Assembly (NCBI GenBank): GCA_030407315.1
Contig: JALQPE010000787.1
Location: forward strand, 80,112 to 144,111
DNA length: 64,000 nt
Reading direction: 5' to 3'
Source of the DNA: Asparagopsis taxiformis
Taxonomy: Eukaryota > Rhodophyta > Florideophyceae > Bonnemaisoniales > Bonnemaisoniaceae
The position numbers were made by a program, and so were the translations under genes. Every line of letters starts with the position of its first letter. Position 1 is the stretch's first letter. Below, in pieces: positions 34,048 to 63,624 of this stretch. The notes below the pieces were generated by a model. That model saw only the letters and a list, made by a program, of their open reading frames with translations, did no database searches and was not told where the DNA came from.

Positions 34048-34061
34048 TTACAGCCGTCATG

Positions 34062-42840: not shown

Positions 42841-43900
42841 TTGTCGGTCGACTCCAATTTCGTCTTTAATTTTTTCATCCTCTCGCTCACACCCCCTTCC
42901 TGTTGGTGCTCACCTCCCCCGTACTGTACCTCAAACACCCCCAATACCACTCTAGCACGCATTTTCAGATACCTATCCCCGCTTCCACGGTGCACACCTC
43001 CATTCCATACCTACTTTTCTGCTCTACCGTACAGATTTCGTATAACCAGTCCTCATACTACCTCAGAATAGGGCAAAACACCCCCTATCTCCTCGACCAT
43101 GCTCTCCCCCATCACCTTTGAAACGTATTGTTCTTCAGTACCCTCTCTCCTCTACCCTCAACCCCTCTCCTTCGCCCTCTACACAAACTTCCCCTGCAGC
43201 TTACTCTTCCAAAACCTCTCACTCCCCATCCCGTACCCGACCTGCTCCACCCCTCCCTCCCTCAGCTGCTCCATGCCCCCACGCCATCCGCATCTTCGAT
43301 ACCGTATACACCACCACCACCGGCCCACGCTCCCGCACTGCGGGGTGGCTCCCCCGCCGTATCCCCAGAAACCTCCCCGCTCTGAAACACATATCAACCC
43401 CCCACTTCGCACCCTTCCTCCCACTCCCCTCCCTCCCCAAATACAATAACCCCCTTCTTCTCCATCACATCCCCACTCACCACAGCCAGAACAGACGCCA
43501 CCCCCTCCCTTCTTTCTCCTCACTTTCCTAAAAACCCCTCCTCTCGGCGCCTTCAACCGCACCCTCCTACGGTCCCACCTAAACACCTCCTCCGCCCTCA
43601 CTACCCCAACACCCCGCAGCGTCTCCCCAATCCCCATAATATGCTTGTCGGCACTCCTCTCCGAATCACAATCCATTCTAAACCCGCACTCCGTACATTT
43701 CCACCTCCCCCTGTACCATCCCAAGATTCCATCCCCCCACAGAACACATCCTCATACCACAGAAGAATTTTCTTCCTCTCATACCTCATCCTTAAAACCT
43801 CCATCAGCTCCATGTAAATTTCGATGAAAATATTTTCTCTACTATGCAATCTCAAACATGTATGAGCCTATGCCTTTCCGCTTTGTCAACCCTGAATATT
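42841..43900. other. Strongly pyrimidine-skewed region
   Basis: The plus strand is mainly C and T over about 1 kb (clearest at 43100-43560), with few G. The minus strand carries a decayed Cys/Gly-rich reading frame, annotated separately. Confidence 0.5.
43179..43855 (-). pseudogene. Decayed Cys/Gly-rich protein fragment, unrecognised
   Basis: Two overlapping frames (43601-43855, then 43179-43724) read as one fragment with a frame break at about 43720. The first has YMELMEVLRMRYERKK and LLWYEDVFCGG; the second has KCTECGFRMDCDSERSADKH, which could be a zinc-binding loop. After about 43560 it degenerates into Gly/Arg low complexity caused by the base skew. No family recognised. Confidence 0.3.
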
Positions 43901-44152
43901 GGTACTCATGTATTCATAAAATAGGGCCACCCACATCCCTATCCCGTTCTGCAAGCTTTACAAACCACTAGACGCATACTCCACAACTATACAACAAACA
44001 CTACTCGCTATTTCAGACGACGCGGTACACAAGTAGCGTAGTGTCAACCTTCCGTGACGCCTTCCCTGATGCGTACAAGTGGGAAACACGTCTAGACGTA
44101 TATCAGAAGTGAGTGCGGGAATTTTCGGCACAGGAGATGCTGGGCCACAAAA

Positions 44153-44233
44153 TTGATTTTTCGGAAATTTTAGAATTTCTGGGCTGGCCAGCAATGCAAT
44201 CGAGCTGGACATCCACCGGACGTCCATTTCAGG
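44153..44233 (+). repeat. R repeat 1 (3' half only)
   Basis: Contains GAAATTTTAGAATTTCTGGG through the ACATCCACCGGACGTCCATT end of R; the hairpin half is missing. Confidence 0.85.
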
Positions 44234-44479
44234 TTGGTCGCGAGAGGGTGGGGCGGGACCATGATGAAACAAGGACCAAGACCTTTCCCTGACGTGTTGA
44301 GCCTGAAATCGACCCTTCGTGAGACGCGATTTTGGCTTACAGTTGGTGCTAATAGAAGCCAGTGATAGCCCCGATCGGGGCGGCAGCCGGCTCCGGCTTA
44401 CAGTTGGTGCTTACAGACGCCAGTGATAGCCCCCGATCGGGGCCGGCGGTCGGTTCCTGGGGCCGTTGTGGCCAAATTA

Positions 44480-44683
44480 GACACCCTGATTTGAATTAAA
44501 ATTTGGGCTATTCTCAAAAACATGCACATGTGAACATGTTTTTGAGATGGGGGTGTGCCGTACGGCACAATCGACCGCCCAAATCGTTGATTTTTGCAAG
44601 ATTTTTTGTGCCCGAAATTTTAGAATTTCTGGGCTGGCCAGCAGTGCATCTGAGCTGGACATCCACCGGACGTCCATTTCAGG
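44480..44683 (+). repeat. R repeat 2
   Basis: Full-length R (~204 bp). Order of elements: GACACCCTGATTTGAATTAA; hairpin TCTCAAAAACATG/CATGTTTTTGAGA with a 10-nt CACATGTGAA loop; 14-bp palindrome GTGCCGTACGGCAC; GAAATTTTAGAATTTC dyad; CCGGACGTCC end. Confidence 0.95.
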
Positions 44684-44980
44684 TTGGTCGTGTGCTGCCT
44701 ACATCCACGCATTGCAGAAACTAAGCCAGCGGGTTCACTACTAATACAAAGTACACGGAATATGAGTAACGTGATAGGTGAGTAGTGTTTGTGTTGAGGG
44801 AGTAAGGCGGGACCATTATGAAACACGGAAGAAGATGCGTACCTAGCATAACTTAGGCTTGAAGCCTGGAATCGACCCATCTTTCGGCGCCATTTAGCCT
44901 CACAGTTAGTGCTTACAGAAGCCAGTGATGACCCCGCTCGGGGCGGCGGCTCGGTTCCTGGGGCCGTTGTGGCCAAATTA

Positions 44981-45184
44981 GACACCCTGATTTGAATTAA
45001 AATTTGGGCTATTCTCAAAAACATGCACATGTGAACATGTTTTTGAGATGGGGGTGTGCCGTACGGCACAATCGACCGCCCAAATCGATGATTTTTTACA
45101 ATTTTTTTGTGCCCGAAATTTTAGAATTTCTGGGCTGGCCAGCAGTGCAATCGAGCTGGACATCCACCGGACGTCCATTTCAGG
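44981..45184 (+). repeat. R repeat 3
   Basis: Full-length R, starting 501 bp after repeat 2. The spacer is the long type containing TTCACTACTAATACAAAGT. Confidence 0.95.
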
Positions 45185-45367
45185 TTGGTCGTGAGAGAGT
45201 GGGGCGGGACCATGATGGAACAAGGACCAAGACCTGTCCCTGGCGTATTGAGCCTGAAATTGACCCTTCGTGAGACGCGATTTTGGCTTACAGTTAGTGC
45301 TTACAGAAGCCAGTGATGGCCCCACTCGGGGCGGCGGCCGGTTCCTGGGGCCGTTGTGGCCAAATTA

Positions 45368-45572
45368 GACACCTTGATTTGAATTAAAATTTGGGCTATT
45401 CTCAAAAACATGCACATGTGAACATGTTTTTGAGATGGGGGTGTGCCGTACGGCACAATCGACCCGCCCAAATCGTTGATTTTTGCAATATTTTTTGTGC
45501 CCGAAATTGTAGAATTTCTGGGCTGGCCAGCAGTGCATCTGAGCTGGACATCCACCGGACGTCCATTTCAGG
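45368..45572 (+). repeat. R repeat 4
   Basis: Full-length R, starting 387 bp after repeat 3. The spacer is the short type containing GGGGCGGGACCATGATGGAA. Confidence 0.95.
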
Positions 45573-45867
45573 TTGGTCGTGTGCTGCCTACATCCACGCA
45601 TTGCAGAAACTAAGCCAGCGAGTTCACTACTAATACAAAGTACACGGAATACGAGTAACGTGATGGGTGAGTAGTGTTTGTGTTGAGGAGTAAGGCAGGA
45701 CCATGATGAAACAGGGAAAAAGATGTCACCCAAGCATAACTTAGGCTTCAAGCCTGGAATCGAACCATCGTAAGACGCGATTTTGGCTTACAGTTAGTGC
45801 TTACAGAAGCCAGTGATGACCCCGCTCGGGGCGGCGGCCGGTTCCTGGGGCCGTTGTGGCCAAATTA

Positions 45868-46072
45868 GACACCCTGATTTGAATTAAAATTTGGGCTATT
45901 CTCAAAAACATGCACATGTGAACATGTTTTTGAGATGGGGGTGTGCCGTACGGCACAATCGACCGCCCAAATCGATGTTTTTTGCAATATTTTTTTGTGC
46001 CCGAAATTGTAGAGTTTCTGGGCTGGCCAGCAATGCATCTGAGCTGGACATCCACCGGACGTCCATTTCAGG
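45868..46072 (+). repeat. R repeat 5
   Basis: Full-length R, starting 500 bp after repeat 4 (long spacer type). It is the last copy before the dioxygenase-like gene. Confidence 0.95.
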
Positions 46073-46384
46073 TGATCGTGTATCGTGCACGTCCAGCCAT
46101 TACCGGAAGCAAGTAGGCGATGAAGCACGTACAAACCCAATTGTTCTGCTATTTCTACCATAGACCATCGAGTCTAGAGATGTGAGGGAATCGTCCTGGA
46201 ATCATGCTCCAACCCACGAGGGAATGGACAATCTAGTTTGAAAGCATGGAACGGAAGTACATTATACTAGGTTCATAGATTGAAAGTGATAAAGGAGATG
46301 ATTATATTCTCGATAATTGTTTACCAAAGTAGTAGTTGTTAAGCTATCTAGCCGTCGGAAAATTCTTCTTCCTCTTCGTCCTCA

Positions 46385-48429
46385 CTATATCAGGATCTCC
46401 GGCAGAATAGGCGTTATCGGCAACTGGGAGAATAGCTCGATGGGCCACACCCGGTGTGTGCATTCATCCTTGCGAGGTTCTGTCGTCTTCATCCGCATCA
46501 TTCCGAGCTGCCCTGTCTTCGGCCTACCATCTTTCTTGACCGGGATGGGAACAACTGTCTTGTGGCGAACATTGACAGGTGCCGGTTGACTTTGCCTTGC
46601 AGACCGGCGCGGAGCATTGGCGATGACTTCTTCTTCGAATCCCAACCGCCTGATGAAACCAAACGAAACATTGTCGGGAATCGGATACGACGCATTCCTG
46701 AAATACGTGTGATACCTCGTTGTCGTGTGTGACACAACTCTGTCGACATGCCCTGCCCCGGCATGTTGTACATGGCCGTGACCGATGAAGACTGAACGTG
46801 GCGGAACGATTACCTTCTTCAGCTTCATCGTCTTGGCGTACATATCTAATTCCAGCGCTTTGGAAAAGACGTACTTGTGGGACCCTGGACACACCCAGAT
46901 AGGGAATGGGTCATCTCCGTTGGCAATAACAAAGTAACCCGGAAGTTGATCTTTGCGGTCGCGAGGAGGAACAGGGAAATCATTGTGTGGGACCTGCCGA
47001 GGACACCCCTTTCCCGTTATCAAAAACCGTCCCCCAGATGCCGGCATGACAAGTTTTTCTCCCGGTAAACCGCACTCCTCCAGCCCTATCAGCCGGACAA
47101 GGATTCCCAACCACACATCCAGCAGGGCTCGCCGCGTCACAAACTTGAACCGGTCGATATGCGTCTCATCGTTCTCGGCATAGTCAACCAGGCAGTGGCG
47201 CGTAGACGTGAAGCGAGCCCTCCCCTCATTCCGGTTCTTCTCATCTGTTTCATCGTCCCCCGTATTGACAATGGGACTCCACAGCTGCCGGTTCCCAGGG
47301 TCCTTGTGCACCTGCTCCCCCTCCCACGTTCCCAAAAAGTACCGAAACAATTCCTGGTTAGGAATTTCTTCCATGAGACCCAAGTCAAATGGGAACTTGT
47401 CCGACGCATCGAGGTAGCTTACATCCGCGAAATTGTGCATCACCGTATACCCTCGCTCGTTGATTTCCGTTCGGCAATTGTGGAAGTACGCCATACCAGT
47501 GCCGGCCTCATACGAATCCTTCCAGCTTGTAGACATTCGCGCAACCTGGGCGAAGTCCAGCCTCGAGGGTAGAAACGTCGATGTAGGCTCACACATCGCC
47601 TTGGCAGCCATCTTCCACGCTGCGAAGAACATCGGATAGACGTGATCGATTTCGAAAGCACACGAGCCCGATGTTCTTCCGGAATATGCAGCCCCTCAAA
47701 CACAGGGTCCATCGCCACTTGCTTCAAATACCTCACCTCTCTGCCCTCCTCATCGATTTCCACACTCTCCAATAACAACCTGAGCTCAATCGGGGGCAGA
47801 CAGCCAACCCTCACCGATGCGATGACATCCGCGGGACGCTGCGCCAGATGATGCCCTTCGGCTCGGTCTTCGAAATCGTCAGGAAGAGACGGCATACGGT
47901 CGTCGAAGAGGAGGTCGTCTTCAGAAGGAGAGTCACGAACGATGTAACCGTCTTCATCGACTTCCACTCCTTCCGGAACAGTGAATGTAATTGTCACTTC
48001 GCGGACCCCCTTGCTTTCGACTTGGCCCTCGTCTGCACCCTGTTTGTCTTCCTCGTCCGAAGCGGTATGGACAGATTCTTGGTTGGAGGGAGTCGCACCA
48101 GCACGTTGGTTATCTTGGGGGACAATCTCAACGGCAGAATCGGGGGAACGGGCGGAGTCTTCGTCAACCTCATCACCGGAAGCAGTGGCTTGTTGTTGAT
48201 CGGTGGGTTTATCAACAACGGCCTGCTCTTCTTCCCCGGCGGATTGTTGTACCACAACCGGCTCTTCTTCCTCGAGGCGTGTGCTCCCCGTCGAGCGAAG
48301 TCGCTGTGAACGGCGGCGGATGCCATGCGAAGCAGGCTCATGTTCGACATTCCGCTGCTTCTTGTGAGTGAGTCTCACATTGGCAGCAGAAGGGCGGCGT
48401 TTGCGTCGAGCCTTAGTCTTCTTCTTCAA
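46385..48429 (-). CDS. 2OG-Fe(II)-dioxygenase-like protein (frame-broken; probably C-terminal half of a ParB-dioxygenase polyprotein)
   Basis: The coding signal covers 47640-48429 and then 46385-47640 in the neighbouring frame. The N-terminal part is Lys/Arg-rich (possible nuclear-localisation sequence), then acidic. The C-terminal part has a double-stranded beta-helix pattern: the iron-binding His-x-Asp in VPHNDFP (His at 46985-46987, Asp at 46979-46981), then PIWVCPGSH, VPPRSVFIGHGHVQHAGAG with the distal His at 46763-46765 (74 residues after the first), and a downstream Arg in TTTRYHTYF that could bind 2-oxoglutarate. The subfamily (PhyH-, AlkB- or TET/JBP-like) cannot be fixed by eye. No ATG opens the first segment, and it overlaps the upstream ParB-like frame by 17 nt. 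The frame break at about 47640 falls in a TTT run. Confidence 0.6.
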
Positions 48430-50283
48430 TGTCGGATTGAAAAAACTCTTTCAAGTTCGTTTCCAAATCCTGTAAACGCGTGGTTCTCCGTCGCATTCGA
48501 ACCTCACTGCTCCGGTCGTCCCCTCTATACATTGCAATGGCATTGGTGAGATGCCATTGCAACTCCTTCGGCTGCTTAACCGACCCAATTGCCATCTCTG
48601 TGCTCAGAAATGACTTGCGCATAATACTCTTTGGGCGCCCAAACGCAGCGTACAGAGAATTTGCTATTGCAGTCACGCGACGGACGTATGTATAAAGTCG
48701 TTCACGTCAAAGCGTCCATCCGGACGTCCGCCATGAGCAGGGTTCAAGTACTCCGAAAGACCACGCAAGACGAAGACAAAGTTTTCTTCCAGCAACTCGC
48801 GCACTATCTTGTGGTCCAGGTGCGTTATCCCAATCTCGTTGCGGCGCTCGGAATTGTTCAGCTCACGCAACACGTCGTCGAGAACAGGATGCTTCAGCGT
48901 TGCTATAGCCAAACGCGTCCACCGCCGAGCCGTGTTCGTCGAATTCATCATCCCCATGAACTGCGCCTCGAACAATGTTCGGATGACATCAGACTCACGC
49001 AAGTCGCCAGCGTTTTCCACGTTGTTTGCAACAGCAATCGTACGGATGAACTGCTGGATGGACGACAAGATTCGAACCAGGGAGCGCTCCGTCAGTTGCG
49101 TCCCAGTCGTATGGTTCGACTCTGCACTCTTGTGGATGATCTCATGAGGCTGGAGATCACTGTCGTCCTTGCGGCGAAGGTAGTACACATCCAGAGGCTG
49201 AGTAACCCAGCGCAAGCGGTTTGCCTCCTGTGGCAGCTTGGTTCTGTGCATACGGGTGAGGCGCGTGAAGTCATCCGCAATGCTATGCATAGCATTGAGA
49301 CGATGCAGTCCGTCGATCACGGTCACGTTCGCATTGGCATGGAATTTGCCATTCTGGAACAGACGCGTGTCGGCGGACAAATGCGTGTTCTGCGACCTCA
49401 GCACCGTCACAGTGATACGCGAAGAGCTCACATACCCCACCGCCAACATATTGTTGCGCAGGTCCTCCACGTGGTCTTCTTTGACATCGCGAAGGGTCAC
49501 GGCCGGTTCCACTAGCTGCCTCACCAACACAGTCGCTCCTTCTCCGACGTAATCCGACGTCACAAACTTGGGCACCATAATTTGCGTCCCCTGCTGCTCA
49601 CGAATGCTTTCCGCCACCTCCGGTTCGTCGTCCACCTCGGTTACGTCCTGCGTAGTAGCTTCGGTGACGTTGGAGCGAGCAGGGTGCTTCGTGCCTCCAC
49701 TGGAGGCTCTGGCAGAGCGAGCAGGGCGCTTCGTGCCTCCCGAAACCGGGACGGAGCGTGCTGGATGCTTCGTACCCCCCGAACCAGTGATTTCGCCTGC
49801 TGGACCGGTACTGGGCATCCGTCCCGAGCTGGCCTGGTTCGTCGCTGCGTTGAAGTTTGACGCTGCAGCAGGGGTACGAATGTCGCTAGAGCCATCCTCC
49901 GCAGCGGGGCGCATCATCCGAGTATCCCAAGGGTAAAACGCCGCGGCGTATGCTCCACCCATCGTCTCCGGCGGTCCCTCGGCGCCATCAAACATGTACG
50001 GGAACGGGAGGTCCTTGAACTTGTCCTTAGTCGCAATGTTGCGCACGACGATATAGTCGGCCTCGTCGGTTTCCGGCAGCTTGTGGTTGTGCAGCGTGCG
50101 CGGAAGGCCAACATCGCCACCAGCAGTGCTCACCGAAGCCGTCCCAATATGCACAGCCGCACCGTCCACGTCCGCAAACAAGTCGACATCGACGCCGCGC
50201 TTGAGTCCGCGCGACTCCGCTGACGCGCTCACTTGATCGCCGCAAACCGTTGAAAACAAACTGCTGAAATGCGTATCCGCCAT
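48413..50283 (-). CDS. ParB/Srx-like domain protein (frame-broken C-terminus)
   Basis: The start at 50283 (MADTHFSSLF) is the first plausible ATG. Residues 1-230 are low-complexity, with three copies of SGGTK[H/R]PARS, a basic motif that might bind nucleic acid. From about 270 the sequence resembles a ParB/sulfiredoxin fold: a strand-rich section ending in the hallmark helix VIDGLHRLNAM (D324-G-L-H-R328), where ParB-family proteins have G-x-x-R for nucleotide binding or catalysis. A helical domain follows. The main frame stops at 48673, but the neighbouring frame (48413-48676) continues with coding-like YTYVRRVTAIANSLYAAFGR. The break again sits in a TTT run. A nuclease, CTPase or DNA-binding role is inferred from the family. 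Confidence 0.55.
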
Positions 50284-50566
50284 GGTTGTTGAGTTGGAAA
50301 GGAAAAGAGATGGTTGACGTTGACGTATTCGAGTGATGTGGATGGTATGTTTCACGTTAAGTTGAAGAATGGTCGTGAACGCCAATCGCTGGAAATAATA
50401 ACACAATACAACCGAAATTTTGTTAGGTACACACCTATCGTGACCGCTGGAATGCAAGACAGGCAATCGAGATGTGAGTGTCCGTTCAGAACGGGCCCGA
50501 GTCGGGCTCTCGAAACCTGACGAGGTGGCGTGAAGCAGGCAGTGTCCTTGATGTGTAATGTGTTAA
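50284..50566. promoter_or_regulatory. Upstream region of the ParB-like gene
   Basis: The 283 bp lie between the ParB-like start and the left end of the methyltransferase unit. They hold a CGGGCCCGAGTCGGGCTCTCG dyad at about 50493 and no coding signal. The promoter role is inferred from position. Confidence 0.3.
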
Positions 50567-50627
50567 AATTACAGCTGTCAAGCTAGGCGGCTTTTGGGGC
50601 GGCTGCGAGCACCCCTTTATCCGGGGA

Positions 50628-50831
50628 ACACCCTGATTTGAGTTAAAATTTGGGCTATTCTCAAAAACATGCACATGTGAACATGTTTTTGAGATGGGGG
50701 TGTGCCGTACGGCACAATCGACCCGCCCAAATCGTTGATTTTTGCAAGATTTTTTGTGCCCGAAATTTTAGAATTTCTGGGCTGGCCAGCAGTGCATCTG
50801 AGATGGACATCCACCGGACGTCCATTTCAGG
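50628..50831 (+). repeat. R repeat 6 (left inverted repeat of the methyltransferase unit)
   Basis: Full-length R with intact hairpin and GTGCCGTACGGCAC palindrome. Confidence 0.95.
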
Positions 50832-51127
50832 TTGGTCGTGTGCTGCCTACATCCACGCATTGCAGCAACTAAGCAGGCGGGTTCACTACTAATATAAAGT
50901 GCACGGAATATGAGTAACGTGATGGGTGAGTAGTGTTTCTGTTGAGGGAGTAAGGCGGGACCATGATGAAACACGGAAGAAGATTTCTCCCTAGCATAAG
51001 TTAGGCTTGAAGCCTGCAATCGACCCATCTTCCGGCGCCATTTAGCCTCACAGTTAGTGCTTACAGAAGCCAGTGATGACCCCGCTCGGGGCGGCGGTCG
51101 GTTCCTGGGGCCGTTGTGGCCAAATTA

Positions 51128-51330
51128 GACACCCTGATTTGAATTAAAATTTGGGCTATTCTCAAAAACATGCACATGTGAACATGTTTTTGAGATGGGG
51201 GTGTGCCGTACGGCACAATCGACCCGCTGAAATCGATGTTTTTTGCAATATTTTTTTCTGCCCTGAATTGTAGAATTTCTGGGCTGGACAGCAATGCAAC
51301 TGAGCTGGACATCCACCGGGCGTCCATTTC
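51128..51330 (+). repeat. R repeat 7
   Basis: Full-length R, starting 500 bp after repeat 6 (long spacer type). It has more substitutions in the second half and lies 230 bp from the stop codon of the methyltransferase-SET gene. Confidence 0.95.
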
Positions 51331-51559
51331 AACTTGGTCTTGTATTTTGCATCTGCACGCATAACAGCAACCAAGCAGTCAGGTTCACTGCTCGGACGAA
51401 GTGCACCTAGAGTGTGAACGATTGGTTTTTGACAGGCGAGTACTGCCGAATAGGTTTCACCCTGGACTAATGGTGGCTGGACATTCTGCATTATATGATA
51501 TACTTCAACTCTGGAACGTAGCTTTATTTGTAGTCGAAATGAAAACATCTTTCGTGACC

Positions 51560-54500
51560 CTAATTCCATGCTCTAAACGCTGTCCCATAATGAACGTAGA
51601 GCTCCTGCCCCGGACGGATATCGCGGATTGCACGTACTACAATGATCTTCGGATTTTCTAGGTCCTTCGCCTTGAGCTTCTTCCCCGTCGAACCGCTGCT
51701 GTAGTTCTCGACAAACTCGACGTTGGCCATCCGCCTGGTGTCTTCCGCCGGAGTGTCCTCACCTCGCAAATACCGCGGGTCGTTGATGAACTGCGCCGAA
51801 CAGAACGGAGCCGGAACAATCCAAATTGGATGCTCGATGTTTTCGTCGTCCTCCGCTGTTGCATACAGCTTGATAGCATACATCAAGAATGTTTCCTTCG
51901 TTATCGCCATGTGACCCTCTCCGTACGCGAACCTCATCGACTCCTTGCTCATATCAGAGTACACAACAGTTCCGTAGTATGCACATACTTCGTCACCAAC
52001 ATTAAATGTCTGTTCAGCGAAGAGCCCTCTTCCTGCATTTGGATGCTTAATCAGCGATGGTCGAACGCTCAATTTTTTCGCAACACAATCGTGTGCCCGC
52101 ATCACGCGAGGGTTTTCAGTTTGCAACCAGCGGCGCAGGGAAGGTGGCCAATAATGTACCGGTTTCTCCATGTGCTCGCGCGACGCAATCGACTCTGGGC
52201 ACAGCTGCCAGAGGTACTGCCGAATATATTTCGGGAACCTCTGGTACAGGGGAAGGCCAGGTGGGGGTTCGATGATCCTGCGTTCCCTCTGCGTACGCAT
52301 CGTGACAGAGGGGGACGCCAAGAACTTCTCAGCACTCTGTTTCGCTTCTGTCGTGACCCTCATGTCAGTGTTGTTTGAAAGAATTACACGTGACATGACT
52401 GCACACAGCTTTGGAAGCGATCGTACCACACACAATTTGTCCATGTCACTGCCGACGAAAACACGGTGCTCAGGCAAGCTCATAGCTGCTTTTCCCGTTG
52501 CGAAAGTGCCAGAGAATGGATCGACAACAATATCACCAGGCTGTGAATGCTGGCTGATCAACTCCATCATGAGAGCGACGCTCTTCTGCTCTGCACGAAC
52601 TCTGACCGTAGCACCGGTTGTGCTCCTTGTTCGCCACACCATCTCATTCGAATCGATGGCGGGCATATTGATGGTGACGTTGCACCACGCCGGGTACGTG
52701 CCGTCCATGTATCCGTGGTTCCTATAGGCCACCATCTCGCTTCCGGTCTTGAACGGAACACCTCGCTTCCAGAAGTGGATAGCGACCTCTGCCATGTTCA
52801 TGCGTTGGTACCTCTTCCGCCCCGGCATTTGATAGAGGTGCCCAGGTAGTCGGACAAACAACAGAGGTACCTCGTCAACGAAGAAAACTGAATTCCGAAC
52901 GACGTCCTCCTCCTCCTCGTCCTCCTCCTCATCCGCACTTTCTTCGCCACTGTGCTGCGATGCTTCGGAGTCCGAATTCATGGACGTAACCTCTTCTTCA
53001 TCCGACCCGTCATCACTGGCAGCAGTATCGGTTGGGCCTTCTGACTGCGGTCCTTTGTACGTTTCCAAGTAATGGAACCATTCGTAGAACTGCAAAACCG
53101 AGCAGAACACGATGCCGTGGCCACCGGGGCGCAACAGCTCGTCAAACACTTCGATGCTAGCCTGCATATCTTCTGCAGTTAGCCTGTCGTACGAAGAGTT
53201 GGAATCGTTCCTCTTACGACGAACATTGTAGGGCGGATCAGTCAGAATGAGCTGAACGTTGCCCGTGATGGGCACGTGTTCTCGGCTCTCGTCGGCACTG
53301 ACCAAATCTTCGAAAGGGACGTCGTACACCCGGCAATACTGACTCATTTTCGAAAGAAAGTCCTTTGCGAGAGCCTGCCCTTCACTTTCCTGCTCTTCTG
53401 TCGCATGGGGTGACGGTGACGGGGGAGACGGCCCTTGGGCAGTAAGACTGGTCCTCCCAGGTCCAAGTTGAAGCCTGGTTGTGTGTCTTGTCGACGGAAC
53501 CAAACCTCTCCCTCCTGTGTTGCGACGAGTGGGAGTGTCATCAACCGGCTTGGGGACCTTTTCTGCGTCCGCGGCTTGTGGTGCCGGGCGGAGGACAGCC
53601 ATAACGTCTTCGTCGAGGGTGTCAAAATACGCTGGCAGCTTGTCCGGATTTCCGCTTGAGAAGTATATTTCCAGTGCCCCCCAGCGGTCGGACTCCGGCC
53701 AGGTGTACAGGTCCGGGTTGACGATAAGAAACTGCAACCGGTCGAAGAACTTCCTCACAAGGTCCCTAAATGCACTGTGCTGCGCACTGGTTCTTGTCTC
53801 TACTTTTCCACCATATCCATCAGGATGAGATAGGGGAGCTTTGTTGTGGTAGAGATCTAGCTTCTGCTCCATCGGTGCGAATAGACCTTCATCGAGCACG
53901 TCAAACCAATGCTCACTGCTGTCGAAAATGATGTACGGCGCCATCAACTCTTCGAAGCTGGAAAACTTTGCGGCGTAGGCCACATCGGTCCAAGCATGGT
54001 ATAAAACTTGAACCACGTAACAAGCTCGATTAGTGCTTTTCCGATGGGCTGGGACGCGTGCGGCTTCGTTCCCCTCTTCGGCCGCATCTCCTATTCGGCG
54101 ACGCGGCAGGTTCTTGTTGTGATTTCGGATGATAGACAACGCTTGGAAATACATCAATACCTCGAACGTTTCCGGTGGAGCAAGAACGAAGGCGCTTGGT
54201 TCCCCGCGCTGCGGCGCCTGTAGTGGCGAAGGAAGCATGTTACATCCAATAAGGAAGGTCTGCGGCACGATCCCAGAAAGGATGCAGTGCTCAACCCATT
54301 GCCCGATACGCTCATCCTGTCTTGAAAACTCGGCAATGGGTAATGCCAGACGAACAATCTGCTTGGCTCGCTCAACGTTCATCTCTGCCATGACGATTTC
54401 GGCAACATCCGCCTCGACTCCAGCATTCTTCGAACGACCGCTGAAGGACATGCTGAGTCGACCTTGCAGCGCCACAAATTGTTCTTCCGTGCCCTGCGCA

Positions 54501-54757
54501 ACCCAAGCGCCAAGGTCCGCGTATGTGAAACCTCCCGGCTTGTCCGTCAAGTCTGCGAAACTTGAGTGGGCGAATAAATCCAGCAAGAGGCGGAGGAAGT
54601 CTTTGCCAGCGAGAGTAGTTTCGCGGGCGGCGCGACCTACGTTTCGACGTGTACCCATGTCACTAGAATCCTCCCAAGGGCTAGCGGGTTCGCGCAGAAT
54701 TGGCACGGTTGCGTCGTCAACGATCGGATTGCTGTTGCGCCTGCGCTTATTCGTCAT
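51560..54757 (-). CDS. DNA amino-methyltransferase (beta class) fused to a SET domain
   Basis: This is an intact 1065-aa protein. Residues 1-420 are an unrecognised helical domain and a Ser/Pro linker. Residues about 470-790 are an N6_N4_Mtase-type domain in beta-class order: catalytic motif LILTDPPYN (Asp507-Tyr510) comes first and the AdoMet-binding DPFSGTFATG (from Asp746) after it. Between them is a long acidic insert (DEEEDEEEED). DPPY is used for N6-adenine or N4-cytosine methylation. The C-terminal about 170 residues are SET-like: AGRGLFAEQ at the start, QFINDPR where canonical SET has the NHS-type loop, and PGQELYVHYG at the end. SET enzymes methylate protein lysines, mostly in histones. 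A single protein able to mark both DNA and histones is therefore predicted. The NDPR and VHYG variants mean SET activity is not assured. Confidence 0.85.
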   Translation of the reverse strand: MTNKRRRNSNPIVDDATVPILREPASPWEDSSDMGTRRNVGRAARETTLAGKDFLRLLLDLFAHSSFADLTDKPGGFTYADLGAWVAQGTEEQFVALQGRLSMSFSGRSKNAGVEADVAEIVMAEMNVERAKQIVRLALPIAEFSRQDERIGQWVEHCILSGIVPQTFLIGCNMLPSPLQAPQRGEPSAFVLAPPETFEVLMYFQALSIIRNHNKNLPRRRIGDAAEEGNEAARVPAHRKSTNRACYVVQVLYHAWTDVAYAAKFSSFEELMAPYIIFDSSEHWFDVLDEGLFAPMEQKLDLYHNKAPLSHPDGYGGKVETRTSAQHSAFRDLVRKFFDRLQFLIVNPDLYTWPESDRWGALEIYFSSGNPDKLPAYFDTLDEDVMAVLRPAPQAADAEKVPKPVDDTPTRRNTGGRGLVPSTRHTTRLQLGPGRTSLTAQGPSPPSPSPHATEEQESEGQALAKDFLSKMSQYCRVYDVPFEDLVSADESREHVPITGNVQLILTDPPYNVRRKRNDSNSSYDRLTAEDMQASIEVFDELLRPGGHGIVFCSVLQFYEWFHYLETYKGPQSEGPTDTAASDDGSDEEEVTSMNSDSEASQHSGEESADEEEDEEEEDVVRNSVFFVDEVPLLFVRLPGHLYQMPGRKRYQRMNMAEVAIHFWKRGVPFKTGSEMVAYRNHGYMDGTYPAWCNVTINMPAIDSNEMVWRTRSTTGATVRVRAEQKSVALMMELISQHSQPGDIVVDPFSGTFATGKAAMSLPEHRVFVGSDMDKLCVVRSLPKLCAVMSRVILSNNTDMRVTTEAKQSAEKFLASPSVTMRTQRERRIIEPPPGLPLYQRFPKYIRQYLWQLCPESIASREHMEKPVHYWPPSLRRWLQTENPRVMRAHDCVAKKLSVRPSLIKHPNAGRGLFAEQTFNVGDEVCAYYGTVVYSDMSKESMRFAYGEGHMAITKETFLMYAIKLYATAEDDENIEHPIWIVPAPFCSAQFINDPRYLRGEDTPAEDTRRMANVEFVENYSSGSTGKKLKAKDLENPKIIVVRAIRDIRPGQELYVHYGTAFRAWN

Positions 54758-55080
54758 AATGGAATGAGTGGAAAATTCGGTACAGGATGGCGACCGCTCG
54801 GCGAGACAGTCAAATTTGACGACGTATCTCGTGACGTTTGCACTCTTTCGTGAGGAACACTGGTTGATATCGAACGGAACAGAGTATACGGGTACACAGC
54901 ACTGGAAAGGTCTTGAAACCCGTAACCGGTGTAGGTAATAAGTTGTGACGGATACGTGGTAGAGAAAAAAATTTTAAAAAGATTGTGATTCCCTGCCTTT
55001 GAGTGTTGTACTGCAAGGCCGCCAGTCACATAGGTTGACACAGGTGCCTCACGCTTACCAGGTGAGCGACATCCGGACGG
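54758..55080. promoter_or_regulatory. Upstream region of the methyltransferase-SET gene
   Basis: The 323 bp between the gene start and R repeat 8 hold no coding signal. The promoter location is inferred. Confidence 0.3.
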
Positions 55081-55273
55081 CCACTGGACGTGGGGATGTC
55101 CGACTCAGATGCATTGCTGGCCAGCCCAGAAATTCTACAATTTCGGGCAGAAAAAATATTGCAAAAAACATCGATTTCGGCGGTCGATTGTGCCGTACGG
55201 CACACCCCCATCTCAAAAACATGTTCACATGTGCATGTTTTTGAGAATAGCCCAAATTTTAATTCAAAGCAGG
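55081..55273 (-). repeat. R repeat 8 (inverted)
   Basis: R on the minus strand, hairpin and GTGCCGTACGGCAC intact; the CCGGACGTCC end is diverged. Right after it the sequence departs from the usual spacer. Confidence 0.9.
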
Positions 55274-55540
55274 ATGCAGATATTCGTCTTCTACCATTGT
55301 CAGAACACATTCGTATAACCACATTTGGAGAACCTGAGCCCAGAGCTATCGGTTTTGGCGGGAGCTAAGCCATATCTCATATAATCAGTAACTACTTCCC
55401 GCCAGCTGAGTGGTGGAACCCCTGCTATTTCTACCAACGAGACATACGGGGTGTCAACTCGGCAATCGTATATGATTTGGGTGCTAAATTTATTCAAGAG
55501 ACGAATGGGCTTCGAAAAGGAGCCCAACTACGTCTACTTG
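55274..55540. other. Spacer after R repeat 8
   Basis: No gene or recognisable repeat was seen. Confidence 0.3.
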
Positions 55541-55905
55541 TGATCCATGGGTATAGGACTATTCTATTCTTCTCCAGGCTTCCACCGTAGCCGCCTCCTC
55601 CGCCTCCGTTAATGGAAAGAATATCCGAACCGCACCTCAACATGTTCTTCATGTGATCCATGGGTACTGACATCTCACATGCTCTCCAGGCTTCCACCGT
55701 AGCCGCCTCCTCCGCCTCCGTTAATGGCAACAATATCCAAACTGGACCTCTACATGTTTTTCTTGTGATCCATGGGTACTGACATCTCACATGTTCTCCA
55801 GGCTTCCTCCAAAGCCGCCACCTCCACCTCCGTTAATGGAAAGAATACCCGAACCGCAGGCTTCCTCCATAGCCGCCTCCACCTCCGTTAATGGCAAAAA
55901 CATCT
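55541..55905 (-). repeat. 112-113-bp minisatellite encoding Gly-rich peptides on the minus strand
   Basis: Three anchored units (TGATCCATGGGTA at 55541, 55653 and 55766), plus a shortened fourth, each contain GGCTTCC(A/T)CC..AGCCGCC then TCCGTTAATGG. On the minus strand this reads INGGGGGGYGGSLE. The units differ by few substitutions. Confidence 0.8.
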
Positions 55906-56365
55906 CACCGGGCTGAAAACGGACGGACGACATTGGGTTCGTTCCGCTGCGTAGACGTTTAGAATCTTGTTAGAAAAAAGTAAACGAAAGAGAATGACAT
56001 CTCATCTCTGTCGCAATATGTTCCATTTTCAAGTTCTCGGGTTCCACACCCATCAAGGCCTGGATCGAACCCTCTTCGATGGATAGGACAAATAGTGGAA
56101 GGCTTTTAAGCCTGTGACCAAGCGGCTATTGATTGGTTGGAGGAAGGAAATTACAGAGGAAATTTAGCTGAGTACGGTGCTCGCGATAGCTGTTAGGTTA
56201 AAGTCAAATATGTGTTTCGATTATTTTTCGTACGAAAATGTCTTGCAAAAGACGATGCTTTGTCGTTCTCCTGGAGGGAGTCCGTTGCATTGCACTCAAT
56301 TCGAGAGCATCGTCATGAAGGAGAGGATTCTTTCTGCTTGTTAGAATCGGTTTAGAGCACATAGC
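55906..56365. other. Unassigned sequence between minisatellite and R repeat 9
   Basis: No coding signal or repeat was recognised. Confidence 0.3.
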
Positions 56366-56533
56366 TAATGCATTACTGGCCAGCCCAGAAATTGTAGAAT
56401 TTCGGGCAGCAAAAATATTGTAAAAAACCTTGATTTGGGCGGCCGATTGTGCCGTACGGCACACCCCCATTTAAAACATGTTACATGTGCATGTTTTTGA
56501 GAATAGCCCAAATTTTAATTCAAATCAGGGTGT
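56366..56533 (-). repeat. R repeat 9 (inverted, hairpin damaged)
   Basis: Matches R from the GGCCAGCC dyad to AATTCAAATCAGG. The hairpin arm is shortened to TTTAAAACATG and the loop has lost bases. GTGCCGTACGGCAC is intact. Confidence 0.85.
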
Positions 56534-56710
56534 CTAATTTGGCCACAACGGCCCCAGGCACCGGCCCACCGGCCCCGATCGGGCTACAGCTTCTGAGCAC
56601 CAACTGTAAGGCTAAATGGCGTCTGACGAAGGGTCAATTCAGGCTCAATACGCCAGGGACAGGTCTTGGTCCTGTTCCATCATGGTCCCGCCCCGCTCTC
56701 TCACGACCAA

Positions 56711-56874
56711 CCTGAAATGGACGTCCGGTGGATGTCCAGCTCGATTGCATGGCAGCCCAGAAATTCAATTTCGGGCACAATATTGCCATCGATTTGGGCG
56801 GTCGTTGTGCCGTACGGACACCCCCATCTCATGTTCACATGTGCATGGGCCCAAATTTTAATTCAAATCAGGGT
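56711..56874 (-). repeat. R repeat 10 (inverted, with small deletions)
   Basis: Recognisable over its whole length, but several short deletions remove most of the hairpin arms and one base of the 14-bp palindrome (GTGCCGTACGG remains). Confidence 0.8.
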
Positions 56875-57044
56875 CTTGGCCACACGGCCCCAGGAACCGA
56901 CCGCGCCCCGAGCGGGTCATCACTGGCTCTGTAAGCACCAACTGTAAGGCTAAATGGCGATGACGAAGGGTCAATTTCAGGCTCAATACGCAGGGACAGG
57001 TTTGTCCTGTTCCATCATGGTCCCGCCCGCTCTCTCACGACCAA

Positions 57045-57242
57045 CCTGAAATGGACGCCGGTGGATGTCCAGCTCGATTCATTGCTGGCCAGCCCAGAAA
57101 TTCTAAAATTTCGGGCACAAAAAAATATTGCAAAAAACATCGATTTGGGCGGTCGATTGTGCCGTACGGCACACCCCCATCTCAAAAACATGTTCACATG
57201 TGCATGTTTTTGAGAATAGCCCAAATTTTAATTCAAATCAGG
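57045..57242 (-). repeat. R repeat 11 (right inverted repeat of the methyltransferase unit)
   Basis: Full-length inverted R with intact hairpin and palindrome. It runs into the terminal 50 bp that mirror 50567-50627. Confidence 0.95.
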
Positions 57243-57474
57243 ACGTCTTCCGGACATAGGGGTGCTCGCGGCCTAGCTCGACAGCTGTAATTGTACCTCA
57301 TTAAATACTGTTGATGACTGCCTACCGTATACAATCTGGGCTGTTGGCGTATTCTCGGTACTTGACCTGACCTGAACGTTCATCGCAGACCGTTGTGGTT
57401 ACCGACACTATACAGCAATCTTTTTTGTATCTCGTGCAACTCAATCGTTCCATCGCTTCCGGGAAAGCTTCATT

Positions 57475-59742
57475 ATGCCGCCGCGTATTGCGAAGAAAGC
57501 TCCAAAGCCTCCGGGCCTCCAGAAAACCCGGTCAGCAGCTGCTGTATCGAGTGCCCGACAATCCCGTGCGAAGAAGCGGTCTGGGCCTACCGGCAGCATT
57601 GAACCGCGGTCCGGTAGTCGCAAGACGGACCGGCGCAGAACTGGGGATCCGCAGCGAGAAAGTGAGGAAGGAGGAACGGCGCGGAGAGAGATGGGGCTTG
57701 ACCGAGGCAAGCGTGCTCGCAGGGACAGTGAACATCATGATGATGACATGATAGTGGCTCAAAACATGTTGGAATTGCGGCAGAGTGCTATGGCAAAGGT
57801 AGTTTCTCCCGGGTTGGCAGATGCGGAGGTGCTGCAGACGGAGTCCCAGCCGGGGGTTCGCGAGACACTGGAGGCTGTGACCCCCACTGCGCCAACTATG
57901 CCGAGTACATCAGCCCCAGCAGGTAATGCAGTCAGGGACCCGAGGATAGCGGCAAGGGATGTTTTCTGAGCAACGTTCACAGGATGCCAACTATCATCGG
58001 CGGTCAGGTGGTACTGAGGGGAGAGAGCAGCCGGAGTGCGGGCCTCGTCACAACAGAGTGTCATTGGTGCCAAATATGCGCGTAACGCCCCCGCGACGTC
58101 AGGCTATTGGCGATGGAGGACATCATATTCCCGATAGCGTGGGAGATGGGGGGACGGTGAGGGCAGAGAGGTTGCATCCGCCGGAATCCATCGATTTAAT
58201 GGCGAGTCGCATCAATGCGCAGAAGAAGAAGATCGCGGAGCTGGAAAAAAAAGTGTTTAGCCAGGACATAGCAAACAAGGCGCTCACCACGGAGATGTTG
58301 CGTTGGAGGCTAAGGTGAAGACTCTGCAGGCGGAAAATGCCAGCCTTACTGCAATTGCGAGAACAGGTAGAATCAGTGATCACGGTGGCGGTAAGTCGAA
58401 AATACAGAAAGCCATTCCTGTGAAATACCTTGGAGTTCTTAGGGCGGTTGAGGAAAACCTGACAAAGTGGTGCAAGAACGAGACTATGGAGCTGGACCCT
58501 ATAGCGGAACAAACGCAGAGACGTTGGACTGGACGTACCATCGAGGTAGAGCCGGTAGAAGGGACACTTTGGAGCGAAAACGGTGTAGGATATATTGCTA
58601 CCCCTCCGGGCTATATCATCAAGAATCTGCAGTGGTATACACCTTCGTACAGGGACGAGAGTGATCTGCTGAATGACTTGGTGCGACACGTACTGCGTCA
58701 AAGTCCGTGGTGTGATGTGTTTTCCGATGAGGAGCAGCGTGTGTGCTGTCAAGAGGCTGTGGCGGGGAGCAAGGAATTGAAAGTGAAGGTGACGCAGAAA
58801 ACTGTCCGACGTGATGAGTGCACGGAAGCGTAATGCGAGGGACAGATTGTTCGGTTCGCTGGGGTACACGAAATTAATGTCTAGATGCACGATGCTGACG
58901 ACGCGAGCTGAGATGGACGAGCGAGAGGAACAAAAGCGCGAAGCGTCTGAGAAGCTTTTGAAACGGGAAAGTAACGGTGATTTGGATATGGGGAGGTGGC
59001 GAACGGCACCGTTCTCAGAGCTGCGATACAGCAAAGGCTTGGTTCCTGACAGCTTCGAAATGGAAGTGAATGGTGATGCATGGTTTAACAACGAGTAGCT
59101 GTGAATGTGCTGGACATCTTCAGGGGTTATTCGATACGACCAGAACAAGTAATGGACATAGAGACGAGCATACTAACGCTGGCGCGCCTGGATGCTTGGC
59201 TAGTGACTACTGTGGAGTGTTTGGATGAACCGAAGGGGAAAGGAGGTGCACGGCAGAAGGAGTTTACAAGGCGGTACAGTCAATATGTGGGGGTAGCTTT
59301 TCAGCAATTAGTTGGTATGGTGTGTGCATGCATGTCTTGTCTCCAAGGCTCGCAAGCAAGGGAAGAAACGGACGTTGTCGAGAGCGAACAGCGGACTAGT
59401 GCACAGTCACGGCATGTGTTTGCAAGCCGTACTGTGACGAGAGAGGCTGTTGAAGTGTGGCAAAGCGGAGAGGGGTCTGGAATTGTTCATGTCGTTGATG
59501 ATGTAAACCGCTGCTCATCACTTGTTCTAGTGTCCGAGGATTGGATTCAATCGCATATTACGTCAAACCTCGGTGCTGTAATGGATTGTGTGATTGCGCA
59601 AGGACTAATTGGCGCAGAACTTTTCGTCGTTGACCCATATGCTGGACACCTGAGTGCAAACCTGAATGTCGAAATCAATGCCCCACAGTATGGGGCATGG
59701 AGCGGCGCCATGCAGCCACTGCTGATAACGGTTTTGGCGTAA
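57475..59742 (+). pseudogene. Coiled-coil protein, element-associated, with four single-base frame breaks
   Basis: Five overlapping segments (57475-57969, 57959-58318, 58303-58833, 58811-59098, 59101-59742) alternate between two frames and read as one protein of about 740 aa. The N-terminus is basic and disordered (MPPRIAKKAPKPPG). A leucine-zipper-like coiled coil runs INAQKKKIAELEKKV and, across the second break, into LEAKVKTLQAENASL, a continuous heptad pattern, which confirms that the segments belong together. The remainder has Trp-containing motifs (WSENGVGYIATPPGY, WDVFS-like) of unknown family. It converges on the transposase-like gene 90 bp away, suggesting both belong to one transposon. 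No function is assigned. Confidence 0.5.
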
Positions 59743-59832
59743 TGGAGGATGGTTGAAATTAGTGCAGTAAATGTGACGTTGACTAGAAGTTTATCATGTA
59801 GTACATTATCAATAGAGTGCTGCGATTTAGAT

Positions 59833-62800
59833 TTATTCTTCTTCATTATCATCTGTGAATGTGTAATCAGTGTTGGTGTAGAAGCGGTTGAGATAGAAAC
59901 GGTGGTCCGACCAGTGCATTTGTTTCGTAAATGGCTTGACTGGAAAGTTACTTCGTACGATGTGCACGGTGCCAGATATAGTAGATGCAGGAATGAGGTC
60001 AAACCAAGGACCACCTGCACTGTGGGATGCAGTGTCATTGCTGTCAACGGATCCGTTGTCCGGGTCCCATGTGGACCACTTTAAACAAATGCACCCAAGT
60101 GATTTTTCCACAGCGGTTTTTGGGGCAAAGCAGGTCATATACTGAACGAAAGCGAGTTCTACAGGTTGAAACAGGTTTGGAGACTGCAGGCGTACCAGTG
60201 CCAGGACGCGCCCTACCCATATGGTTCTGTAGTCATCGGCAGTTCCGGAGATGACGACAAAGGAGTACTGCGATCTCTTTGCGGGGCCGAACGATGAAGT
60301 TGCAAAGACGCGCTGCTGCTTGTGCCTCGACACGTTTGTGGGGCGAAGCATGCCACTGTGCGGGTCAAAGTCGTCGGCATCTGGGACGTACCCTCCCATG
60401 ACGTAGGCGGACTTTACCACGGTGACGGAAATGTCCATGTCATGTATTGGAGGGCCTTCTGCCGTGGCGCGCAGTCTAGCGAGGGTGAGGAACGCTTGTG
60501 CAGCTGTGTCACCGAGTTGCTGGAATAGCGTTATGGTGCCAGACGGGAACGAGGAGTTGTGCAGCGGCAAAAGAGTGGCAGGATCGGGCTGTCCGTCGAT
60601 ATCTGCAACGAGGAGGGTTGCATCGGGCAGCAGGGAGGCAAAGTCGTGCAGTGCAACGGTGAATCCGTCGCGAACGAGTACTGCACCGTCTGTGGGCGAT
60701 ATCATGCGTGCGTTTCCCAATTGTTCGATGGGGTGTGACCAGTTGGAGTGGCCAAGGAGAATTCCATGTGGCGAATAGTCTCTTCCATGGCTGTGGAGCG
60801 CCTTCGAGAGGTTTCCTATAACTCTGTTTGAACAGAAGATGCGAGTGTTCGTAGGGGCCTGCATCAATATGTTCCAGGGCGCCATATCTCTGCAAGTCAC
60901 CGGGAAGATGGTCTAGAAGATGGAACTTGAAAGTTTTGAGACCTGTGGTGTGGAATGGGCCGAGGGTGGAGAGCATTGATTGTTTGAAATAGAAATGGAG
61001 TTTGGAGGCTTTCTAGTTCGGCGGCAGTCCAGTGCTTGATGCGACCGCGTTTCATGACCCATGCGACGAGGTCAGAGTATTGCGTGCAGATGGAAGTGAG
61101 GGGGGCTGTATCTACTTCGTCACAGCATGTGTCAATGAATGCTGCGATGAAAGGGAACACCATGTCGACATGGTGATAGTCTTTGGCTGCGAGCATGCCG
61201 CGTATGCCGTCCTCCGTGAAGGCCGTTCAAATTGGTGCCCTTCTCACCCTTGGAGAAGTCGACATGAAGACCGGTGATGTAGTAGTCGCGTTCGATAGCG
61301 GACAGAATGCTGTTTGAGCCGGCGAGGATGGATTTTTTCACCTTCTTGAAGGTGCGAGGTGTCCCGGAATGGGGCAGTGGTGGTGAGGTCTGGGGAGCTG
61401 AGGCGGTGGACAATGCACTGTTTGATGAGCTTTGAGATGCCGAGGTGGAGATTGTGCAGAGGCTCGAAGGAGAAAATGTTGTAGGGGTCTAGGGGACTGT
61501 TGGTGGGTAAAAGAGCGGTCGATTCGAGGACAGAGTGTTGTTCGAGGAGGGAGAGAGCTTCGAGCGGAGCAGTTGTATGCTCCTGAGCGCTCTCTTGGCG
61601 TGCAGAGCGTGTATCATCGAGGGAGCGGGGCTGGTGTGGCGCGCTGGATTCAAGTTGAGTGGCGGGGATGTAGCAGCGGTGGCAGGGATGTGTGGTGGTA
61701 GTGCTGTTGCGAGTGCATGAGAGCTCTTTGGCCTCTGGAAAGTCGCAGCAATAATTGGCTAGGATGGGAAAGCATTGGCGGGCAGTTGCAGTGGAGTCTG
61801 TGCAGGGGAACCCGGAAGAGAACGCGGTGGATAGGGACGAAAACACTTTTTCGAGTGCTTTATGAAGAATATCAATTTTGCGAGCGCGACTAGCAGAACT
61901 AGAGGTTGTCGGCATTTCATCACCGAACAAGGCGTTGGACGAAGGGTTAACAATGTACGGAAGATACCCGACGATGGTGAGGCCGGTACGGATGCAGTGG
62001 CGACGGAGGGGGGCGGAGAAGTTGAGCAGTGTGACGTGTATGGGTATGCGACGATTGCGGAGCTCTTGAGGCTTGTGCTGCTCTTGTCGGAGTACACTTG
62101 GAGGAGGCCGGCAAAGGAGGAAGGGTGGGATCATTTTCCTCTGCCCATACGACCTGTGGATCTTCCGAGAGCTGCACGCGCTGTCTAGTAACCTGGTGCA
62201 GCGTTTTCGCGAATTCTGTGTGTAGGGGATGAGAAAATATTGCGGTGCCGTCTGGGGCGGTCTGTGGGGAGGGGTGGAAGAGAGTATTTTGGTCGTTAGC
62301 CAGTGCTAACTGCCTGCGGAGCATGTCGACTGGGTCGCGGAGGTACAGCTGTGCCGAGTACTTACCAGTTTGTCTGGAATGATGTGGCTCTTGTAACCTT
62401 CGGTGCGGAAATGTGTTTCGACCATGGAAGCGGTAACGTGGCGACATTCTTCTACGGTGCGAACGGCGCTGTTGAACTTTTCTAGGGAGAATGCGGGGTC
62501 TTGTAGGATGGTGATGACTTCGCTCACGCGGCCAGCGCCGGCCTTGTACTCGAGGGTTGTGAGACTGGCGGCGAGGGATTGCACGAGGAGGTCTGCGCGG
62601 GAGGGGGTTGAGGTTGGTGGCAGTGAAGCGTCACAGGGTGAGTCGCTGGAGGAAGCACGACCAGATTCTGGGTCTGGGGAGCTGGGTTGCGGGGAATCAT
62701 GGTCGCCGTTTCGAGCAGGCTCATGGGTGACGGCAGGGACACGAGCGTTGTTGAAATGTTGGGGAGAGGGGTTGAAAAACGGTAGCGACACGTTCGCTCA

Positions 62801-62862
62801 TGCAGCGCGAGCGCATAAGCATCTACGCAGTAGTAGAAGCACCCTTCATACTTGCATTCCAT
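59833..62862 (-). pseudogene. Plavaka/KDZ-CACTA-like transposase, multiply frame-broken
   Basis: Reading from 62862 leftwards, coding signal continues across at least six frame changes. Landmarks in order: an N-terminal C2HC finger (C3-x4-C8, H22-x3-C26), a Pro/Ser-rich linker, ALTTLEYKAG-type helices, YSAQLYLRDPVDMLRRQLA, VYSDKSSTS (equivalent to the family's SSDKTxL block), RIPIHVTLLNF and VGYLPYIV, FPEAKELSCTRN then PCHRCYIP, FSFEPLHNLHLGISKLIKQ, and near the end TFKFHLLDHLPGDLQRYG. This order matches large eukaryotic DDE-type transposases of the Plavaka/KDZ-like group rather than hAT or mariner. The acidic triad cannot be assigned confidently. It is inactive as read because of the breaks. 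Confidence 0.55.
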
Positions 62863-63440
62863 GTCGAGTTTTGACGCAAAAGGGAGGATTGCGAGCTGAA
62901 CAGGGGAGACTGTGCCGTCCAGATGCGACCAATTTTATTTTTGTGGTGCTTTCGAGACTTGGAATGTAACGTGTTCGTAGTTTTTGGGTAGTAGTTTTGT
63001 GCTCACTCCAGCTGACATCCCAACGGTGGAATTTAACCGAGAGTTCATCATTTCCAACTGTTACATCACATTGCGTGCTGGCAACGTGTGCATGGAAGGA
63101 CGAACGACTGCCCTGGGAGATGAATTTTCAATTAATTCATTTGTAATAATAAACTTTTTTATTTCCAAACTTCGTGGAATTTGAATGTGCTTTACAGCGG
63201 ATATGCCACGGATCATGTAAGGAAAGCAAATGGATTCTCATATATATGATTATATGTTTATATTCGTTGTTCTCGATCCGGATCTCTTTGTTCGGGGAAT
63301 CAGAGACCATGGCTTGGGCCATACTCAATCTCACTGCCGGCGATGATTTCGAGTATGCACAGCAAGACTTAAGCGGACGCTGAAAGCTGTCCGGTCGACG
63401 CCGCAGGCTCCACTCCGCCCTCATCACCGACTGAGATCTT
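62863..63440. other. Region beyond the transposase start
   Basis: No supported gene. Short open frames on both strands lack family resemblance. Confidence 0.3.
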
Positions 63441-63557: not shown

Positions 63558-63624
63558 GGGAAGCGTGGAGTTTGAGTCTGACTATTTCCGTTTATGCGAT
63601 ATTTTCATTGGAAGCATGTTGACT

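Follow-up and report, generated by a model that had tools for sequence, protein, structure and literature searches.

A giant Plavaka transposon of the red alga Asparagopsis taxiformis carries a fusion of a beta-class DNA amino-methyltransferase with a SET domain

Methylation of DNA and of histones in eukaryotes is usually thought to be linked through separate writers and readers. A stretch of 64,000 nt in the 141-Mb assembly of the red alga Asparagopsis taxiformis (C787:80112-144111; this whole stretch is called the window) raises the question whether both writers can sit in one polypeptide, and what such a protein would do on a mobile unit. In the original prediction, made from the window alone, a frame of 1065 amino acids (aa) was read as a bacterial-type, beta-class DNA methylase ending in a SET-like domain. 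The frame is confirmed here as a real fusion of a bacterial-type methylase and SET in one polypeptide of a eukaryotic genome, and the gene is an accessory gene of a Plavaka DNA transposon of about 23.3 kb. The gene and its parts, in window positions, are as follows:

51560..54757, minus strand: gene of the methylase-SET fusion, 1065 aa from ATG, recognized by its frame, Pfam matches, fold model and genomic copies
53348..54757, minus strand: N-terminal region, residues 1-470, mostly helical in the model and of no named family
52436..53257, minus strand: beta-class amino-methyltransferase domain, residues 501-774, with motif IV DPPY and then motif I DPFSGT
51584..52033, minus strand: SET domain, residues 909-1058, with AGRG, YYG, INDPR..ANV and ELYVHYG

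Both halves of the 1065-aa protein lie over their Pfam cut-offs, N6_N4_Mtase at residues 501-774 (E 3.4e-15, 57 bits, cut-off 26.7) and SET at residues 909-1058 (E 1e-6, 29.5 bits, cut-off 22.4), in agreement with what had been expected of a search with hidden Markov models (HMMs). DPPY (507-510) is N-terminal to DPFSGT (746-751), which places the catalytic motif IV ahead of the S-adenosylmethionine motif I, and the order is that of a permuted (beta) methylase. With the single protein as query, the methylase half matched DpnA (5e-8) and CcrM (0.003) among PDB sequences. In the predicted model this half has the CcrM/RsrI/N4CMT fold (N4CMT as PDB 8s9m/8s9n/8s9o), and the AlphaFold model of the complete protein resembles CcrM, bdelloid N4CMT, and SUV4-20H1/MLL1. 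The DPPY motif in beta-class enzymes suggests adenine as the target base. According to PMC8885841, the amino-methyltransferase domain has repeatedly evolved either specificity.

The SET half carries the motifs AGRGLF, QFINDPR, and ELYVHYG on which it was first recognized. With the single protein as query, the SET proteins KMT5A and MLL matched only at E >= 0.26 among PDB sequences. With a 17-row family profile both halves matched, SET being represented by EZH2, KMT2C, and KMT2D at E 8e-5 to 2e-3, values that apply to the whole sequence, with no individual stretch passing alone. A SET fold was found in the model by Foldseek (5cpr, 3s8p [SUV4-20H1], and 6u9m [MLL1], E 3e-5 to 6e-5), as structure prediction was expected to show. 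VIA-align rows covered the methylase half only and are thus uninformative on SET. Residues 1-470 had no Pfam match. No chromodomain was matched at E <= 1 in the 1065-aa protein, the C-terminal end of which is SET, unlike that of N4CMT, and no ParB at E <= 1 either, unlike the methylase polypeptide of the Sola1-1_Ec32 type.

The host genome has thirteen phycobilisome-linker matches, which fit a red alga; among 14 control genomes this family was matched in one only, that of the cyanobacterium. At least 43 copies of the gene are present in the host genome (43 of 4133 candidates scored), and all 43 are full length and without stops. Diverged relatives were sought with residues 630-1065 only, and 16 proteins were found among 3851 candidates; an earlier homolog search, in which only the 8000 candidates with the most words in common were scored, gave one relative. 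P0001 is 98% identical to the window protein, with 18 substitutions. The 14 relatives P0002-P0015 align over both halves, with 31-41% identity in the methylase and 22-47% in SET, and, P0001 apart, the 12 relatives that have at least 200 aligned positions in the N-terminal region are 14-25% identical there. P0016 is without the SET part, P0003 without the SET end, and P0007 and P0014 without the N-terminus. With every scored copy open and methylase and SET both alignable in 14 diverged relatives, the motifs and domains of the fusion are far beyond chance.

At E <= 0.05, Pfam recognized the methylase in all 17 family rows and SET in 13 of them. DPP[YF] is kept in 13 of 17 rows; of the rows that extend far enough, 15 of 16 have the SET Asn and 14 of 15 the last Tyr of SET. 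This conservation across diverged relatives indicates that the fusion family is old and that individual members can lose one activity or the other. In P0003-P0005 the methylase motif is altered and the SET Asn is kept; judged by such motifs, methylase and SET activities may be lost separately. Separate trees of the methylase half (17 rows) and the SET half (16 rows) were mostly unresolved, so that a single or repeated origin of the fusion is not settled by them.

The mobile unit that carries the gene has these visible parts:

42519..64000: giant Plavaka transposon, the part inside the window; its right end is beyond the contig end
42519..42551, plus strand: left terminal inverted repeat of 33 bp, differing at 2 positions from the right end in C436/C135

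The predicted placement of the fusion on a mobile unit is thus borne out by a Plavaka element bounded by terminal inverted repeats. Flanks were read for 12 copies, namely the window, 10 other copies, and C444. The similarity of copies C436 and C135 to the window starts at 42516-42519, and outwards of this point they diverge from it. The shared left end is GTCTGTGTTCTCGGAAATGGACGCGGACGTCCA, and at the opposite end these 33 bp recur in inverted form, with 2 mismatches. The left end is visible in four of five left stretches (window, C436, C135, and C611; the C503 stretch missed it), and TAC precedes it in all four. The right end is visible in five of six right stretches (that of C632 missed it) and is followed by GT in four of the five. 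The boundary is sharp and the flanks are unlike between copies. Flanks of the insertion site of C436 read GCCGTAC/GTACGGC. The element in the window runs into the contig end at position 64000 and is incomplete; the element in C135 is 23,265 bp long. Four frames of more than 600 aa are coded in C436, C135, and C503, of 1403 (minus strand), 1154 (minus), 670-794 (plus), and 1036 aa (minus). The 1154-aa frame is the methylase-SET frame measured from stop to stop, and the 1036-aa transposase frame of C503 matches PF18759 with E 1.7e-24. In 23,150 matching columns, C436 and C135 differ by 8 mismatches and 19 gap positions, so the element was recently active, as had been supposed.

In the host genome, at least 123 Plavaka matches were identified (123 of 1208 candidates scored). 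Among the matches listed, one lies within 11 kb of 16 of the 43 copies of the methylase-SET gene, in 14 cases with both on one strand, and in 11 of those 16 the offset from the gene is 9557-9559 or -7304/-7305; the window's own Plavaka match is outside the matches used for this count. PF01555, a family of bacterial-type DNA methylases, has at least 150 matches in this genome (150 of 2605 candidates scored), of which 145 are stop-free and five have one or more stops. Such numbers in one red alga make the disputed question of N6-methyladenine (6mA) and N4-methylcytosine (4mC) in eukaryotes directly testable there. The PF01555 matches form several groups, with open frames of, e.g., 943, 1080, 1106, 1161, and 1186 aa. 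Counted by eye, PF01555 and Plavaka occur together on at least 17 contigs among the matches listed, as co-occurrence at the contig level.

Fifteen of the 43 copies were compared over 3195 bp. They have four polymorphic sites, all of them synonymous third positions. Twelve of the other 14 have the sequence of the window gene unchanged; C426 differs at two sites and C444 at four, which include the two of C426. As 22.6% of possible changes are synonymous, four in four would occur with P 0.0026. Constraint on the protein, also proposed in the original prediction, is supported by these sites, in small numbers.

Internal repeats surround the gene within the element:

44147..46145, plus strand: internal repeat array with units of about 500 bp
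50556..51406, plus strand: internal array between both minus-strand genes; left arm of an invertible segment
55085..57303, minus strand: inverted arrays 55085-55276 and 56368-57303; right arm of the invertible segment
44555..57172: nine exact 14-bp palindromes GTGCCGTACGGCAC, all inside the arrays

The palindromes GTGCCGTACGGCAC start at 44555, 45056, 45443, 45943, 50702, 51203, 55190, 56449, and 57159, one exact copy per array unit, while 0.03 would be expected at up to 1 mismatch. The palindromes lie in conserved cores of these units, in which stretches of 36 and 27 nt are invariant, and may be sites of protein binding or methylation. Eight of the nine cores also contain CTCAAAAACATG..CATGTTTTTGAG. 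The segment with the methylase-SET gene is inverted relative to its neighbours in C426 and C444 (2 of 12 copies), with breakpoints inside the arrays, and recombination between the inverted arrays is a simple account of such flips. C476 is rearranged otherwise, with the Plavaka part inverted. Orientation of the segment could affect expression of the gene. The gene had been described as lying in a repeat-bounded unit; arrays 50556-51406 and 55085-57303 are indeed mutually inverted around it, but the mobile unit is larger and starts at 42519. From the window alone, an element of 6.7 kb at 50556-57303, bounded by TTACAGCTGTC[AG]AGCTAG with an AATT duplication, seemed good. It was rejected, as C436, C135, and C503 share far more sequence, the similarity passes the supposed end, and C426 and C444 show the segment inverted, not inserted elsewhere.

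Three other genes are coded on the element:

46385..50466, minus strand: second element gene, one 1403-aa frame in C436, C135, and C503
57376..59742, plus strand: third element gene, 670-794 aa in C436, C135, and C503, broken in the window
59833..62934, minus strand: Plavaka transposase gene, 1036-aa frame in C436, C135, and C503, broken in the window

In the window, the second gene is split into frames 48673-50466, 47440-48447, and 46385-47692. The third gene gave weak coiled-coil matches only. The methylase-SET gene had been regarded as the only unbroken one, kept among decayed neighbours. This is not supported, as 48673-50466 (minus strand) is also open, with 597 aa, and the other breaks are absent from the copies compared. 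Against C436, C135, C503, and C110, the window has 14-15 small indels in the 1403-aa gene, 8-9 in the plus-strand gene, 10 in the transposase gene, and none in the methylase-SET gene. Every position found against C436 is seen again in the comparisons with C135, C503, and C110, the last two of which each add one more, so the indels are private to the window copy; general decay of the neighbouring frames, which are open in C436, C135, and C503, was rejected. The private indels span 46389-62775, many of them towards the contig end, and 11 of the 14 in the 1403-aa gene crowd within 46389-46465. They may be assembly errors rather than decay, since consensus error is possible near the contig end at 64000. 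Under a uniform rate, with the 11 clustered indels excluded, seven would be expected in the methylase-SET gene (P 0.0008), but rates near a contig end need not be uniform, and its freedom from indels is only suggestive. The 1403-aa frame, intact in three copies, lies at L032:2405-6613 (minus strand). By eye, its protein has a ParB-like motif VIDGLHRL followed by an HxD..H motif like that of 2-oxoglutarate oxygenases; Pfam gave no ParB match for it at E <= 1.

The whole is best explained, with a probability of about 0.6, as cargo of a recently active Plavaka transposon, a writer that joins a methylase of bacterial derivation to SET and would be recruited to copies of its own element. The protein, perhaps aided by its 1403-aa neighbour, would sit on the palindromic arrays inside the element, methylate adenine (or cytosine N4) at these arrays, and methylate a lysine on a nearby chromatin protein. 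Copies of the element would then carry a self-made chromatin state controlling their expression or transposition. The N-terminal region, helical in the model, probably recruits the protein, and coupling of a DNA mark with a histone mark is a fair reading of the anatomy. That the transposon marks itself, one enzyme writing methyl groups on DNA and lysine of its own copies via the arrays while flipping may switch expression, is put forward tentatively; the location of the gene between flipping inverted arrays would let it change orientation and perhaps expression. If true, one protein with both writers would be a natural test of direct coupling of the marks, the dozens of element-borne copies would test whether transposons write their own chromatin, and the element would carry a mobile, self-contained epigenetic state.

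The same anatomy would serve a protective mark, in which 6mA or 4mC together with a permissive lysine mark blocks silencing by the host, so that the direction of the effect alone would differ. Such counter-silencing, proposed for other transposon-carried enzymes, would suit an abundant and recent element; the lysine specificity of this SET type is not readable from sequence, and this alternative, drawn by analogy, is possible at clearly less than even odds. A captured gene might also spread with the transposon and do nothing for it, its open frames reflecting the youth of the copies. The copies compared at the nucleotide level (15 of 43) are near-identical and had little time for decay, but 14 diverged relatives hold the same fusion with catalytic motifs mostly conserved, all four variable sites are synonymous, and 3 of the 18 amino-acid differences to P0001 are within the catalytic cores, to which 41% of its sequence belongs (P 0.027, post hoc). 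The window gene is also free of indels, for which P 0.0008 holds at a uniform rate, doubtful near the contig end. A passenger is unlikely on this evidence.

A viral source of the fusion can be considered, since methylases of Pandoravirus and SET proteins of the brown-algal Feldmannia viruses are among the nearest viral folds. In the viral structure library (best 50 matches listed), the methylase and SET match separate viral proteins, and no fusion was found in four protein scans of viral contigs. Three of these were without any relative, and the fourth gave at least 23 loci, with matches covering methylase residues only, SET not having been sought separately there. Origin in a giant virus is improbable. 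Least probable is that the alga has domesticated the writer and turns it against transposons, in the manner of bdelloid N4CMT, as the gene is embedded in element sequence in all 12 copies with flanks read (of 43, with 31 unread).

Several observations weigh against the preferred reading of an active writer carried by a Plavaka element. The usual SET motif is NHS; at this position the protein has NDP, with the Asn and the final Tyr present. The methylase motif is altered (YPPY, DPPQ, EPPS, EPPR) in 4 of the 17 family rows, P0003, P0004, P0005, and P0013, and P0013 is also without the SET Asn and the SET Tyr, so neither activity is indispensable everywhere. The scored set of 43 favours intact copies, and open frames are weak evidence in copies of such youth. 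Both element ends are present in C436 and C135 only, with GTAC at both sides of C436 and no match at those of C135, and a target-site duplication is not established from these two copies. Neither HMMs nor PDB nor homologs support the ParB-like and oxygenase-like readings of the 1403-aa protein, and the model of its ParB segment is useless (predicted local distance difference test 31.7).

Transposon-borne epigenetic writers are already known, and the SET fusion appears new as far as the literature was covered: no description of a DNA-methylase-SET fusion was found in the accessible text of the open-licence literature, subscription papers being mostly outside the search. Giant Plavaka elements reportedly proliferated in another red alga, Bostrychia moritziana (Petroll 2025). 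The element here shares with them its family, its giant size, and its amplification in a red alga, and their cargo may already include this fusion. The Sola1-1_Ec32 transposon of Ectocarpus encodes a ParB-like and N4/N6 methyltransferase protein of 1104 aa, similar ParB-methylase proteins are cited for green and red algal transposons, and giant EnSpm elements with several accessory genes are found in red algae (available parts of PMC12477816). The gene of the Sola1-1_Ec32 protein is likewise accessory to a giant DNA transposon, and the protein has a methylase of the same class and a similar size. SET is fused here and unmentioned in those parts of PMC12477816, the transposase is Plavaka here and Sola1 there, and the ParB-like motif, seen by eye only, is here on the separate 1403-aa frame.

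N4CMT of bdelloid rotifers is also a permuted beta-class amino-methyltransferase of a eukaryote joined to a chromatin domain; there it is a host gene with a chromodomain reader, and here a transposon gene with a SET writer (PMC8885841). SET methyltransferase genes are carried by DNA transposons in Phytophthora as well, HarbingerS and MuDR, which have other transposase families and for which no fusion to a DNA methylase is mentioned in the accessible text of PMC12730594. By the same text, fungal DNA transposons carry TET/JBP, again enzymes acting on an epigenetic mark, but these are oxygenases on methylcytosine, and the enzyme here is a methyl writer. Plavaka and EnSpm are named often in PMC12730594 by word counts of that text, without thereby being tied to TET/JBP. 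In Amoebidium, gene clusters of up to 50 kb are flanked by Plavaka transposase; these giant repeats have many tyrosine recombinase genes, and no DNA-methylase-SET gene is mentioned in the accessible parts of PMC11244446.

Just outside the left end of the element, two direct repeat copies, 80% identical, are located at 36409-38344 and 40549-42462; Pfam recognized none of the three frames tested in this part. Further to the left, three frames of the trypsin family are close together (21642-22850, 26725-29169, and 30341-31621, all within 21642-31621). Rfam at gathering thresholds identified nothing in the window beyond three tRNA genes. These are coded at 32691-34134, and the two genes for Ala form an inverted pair.

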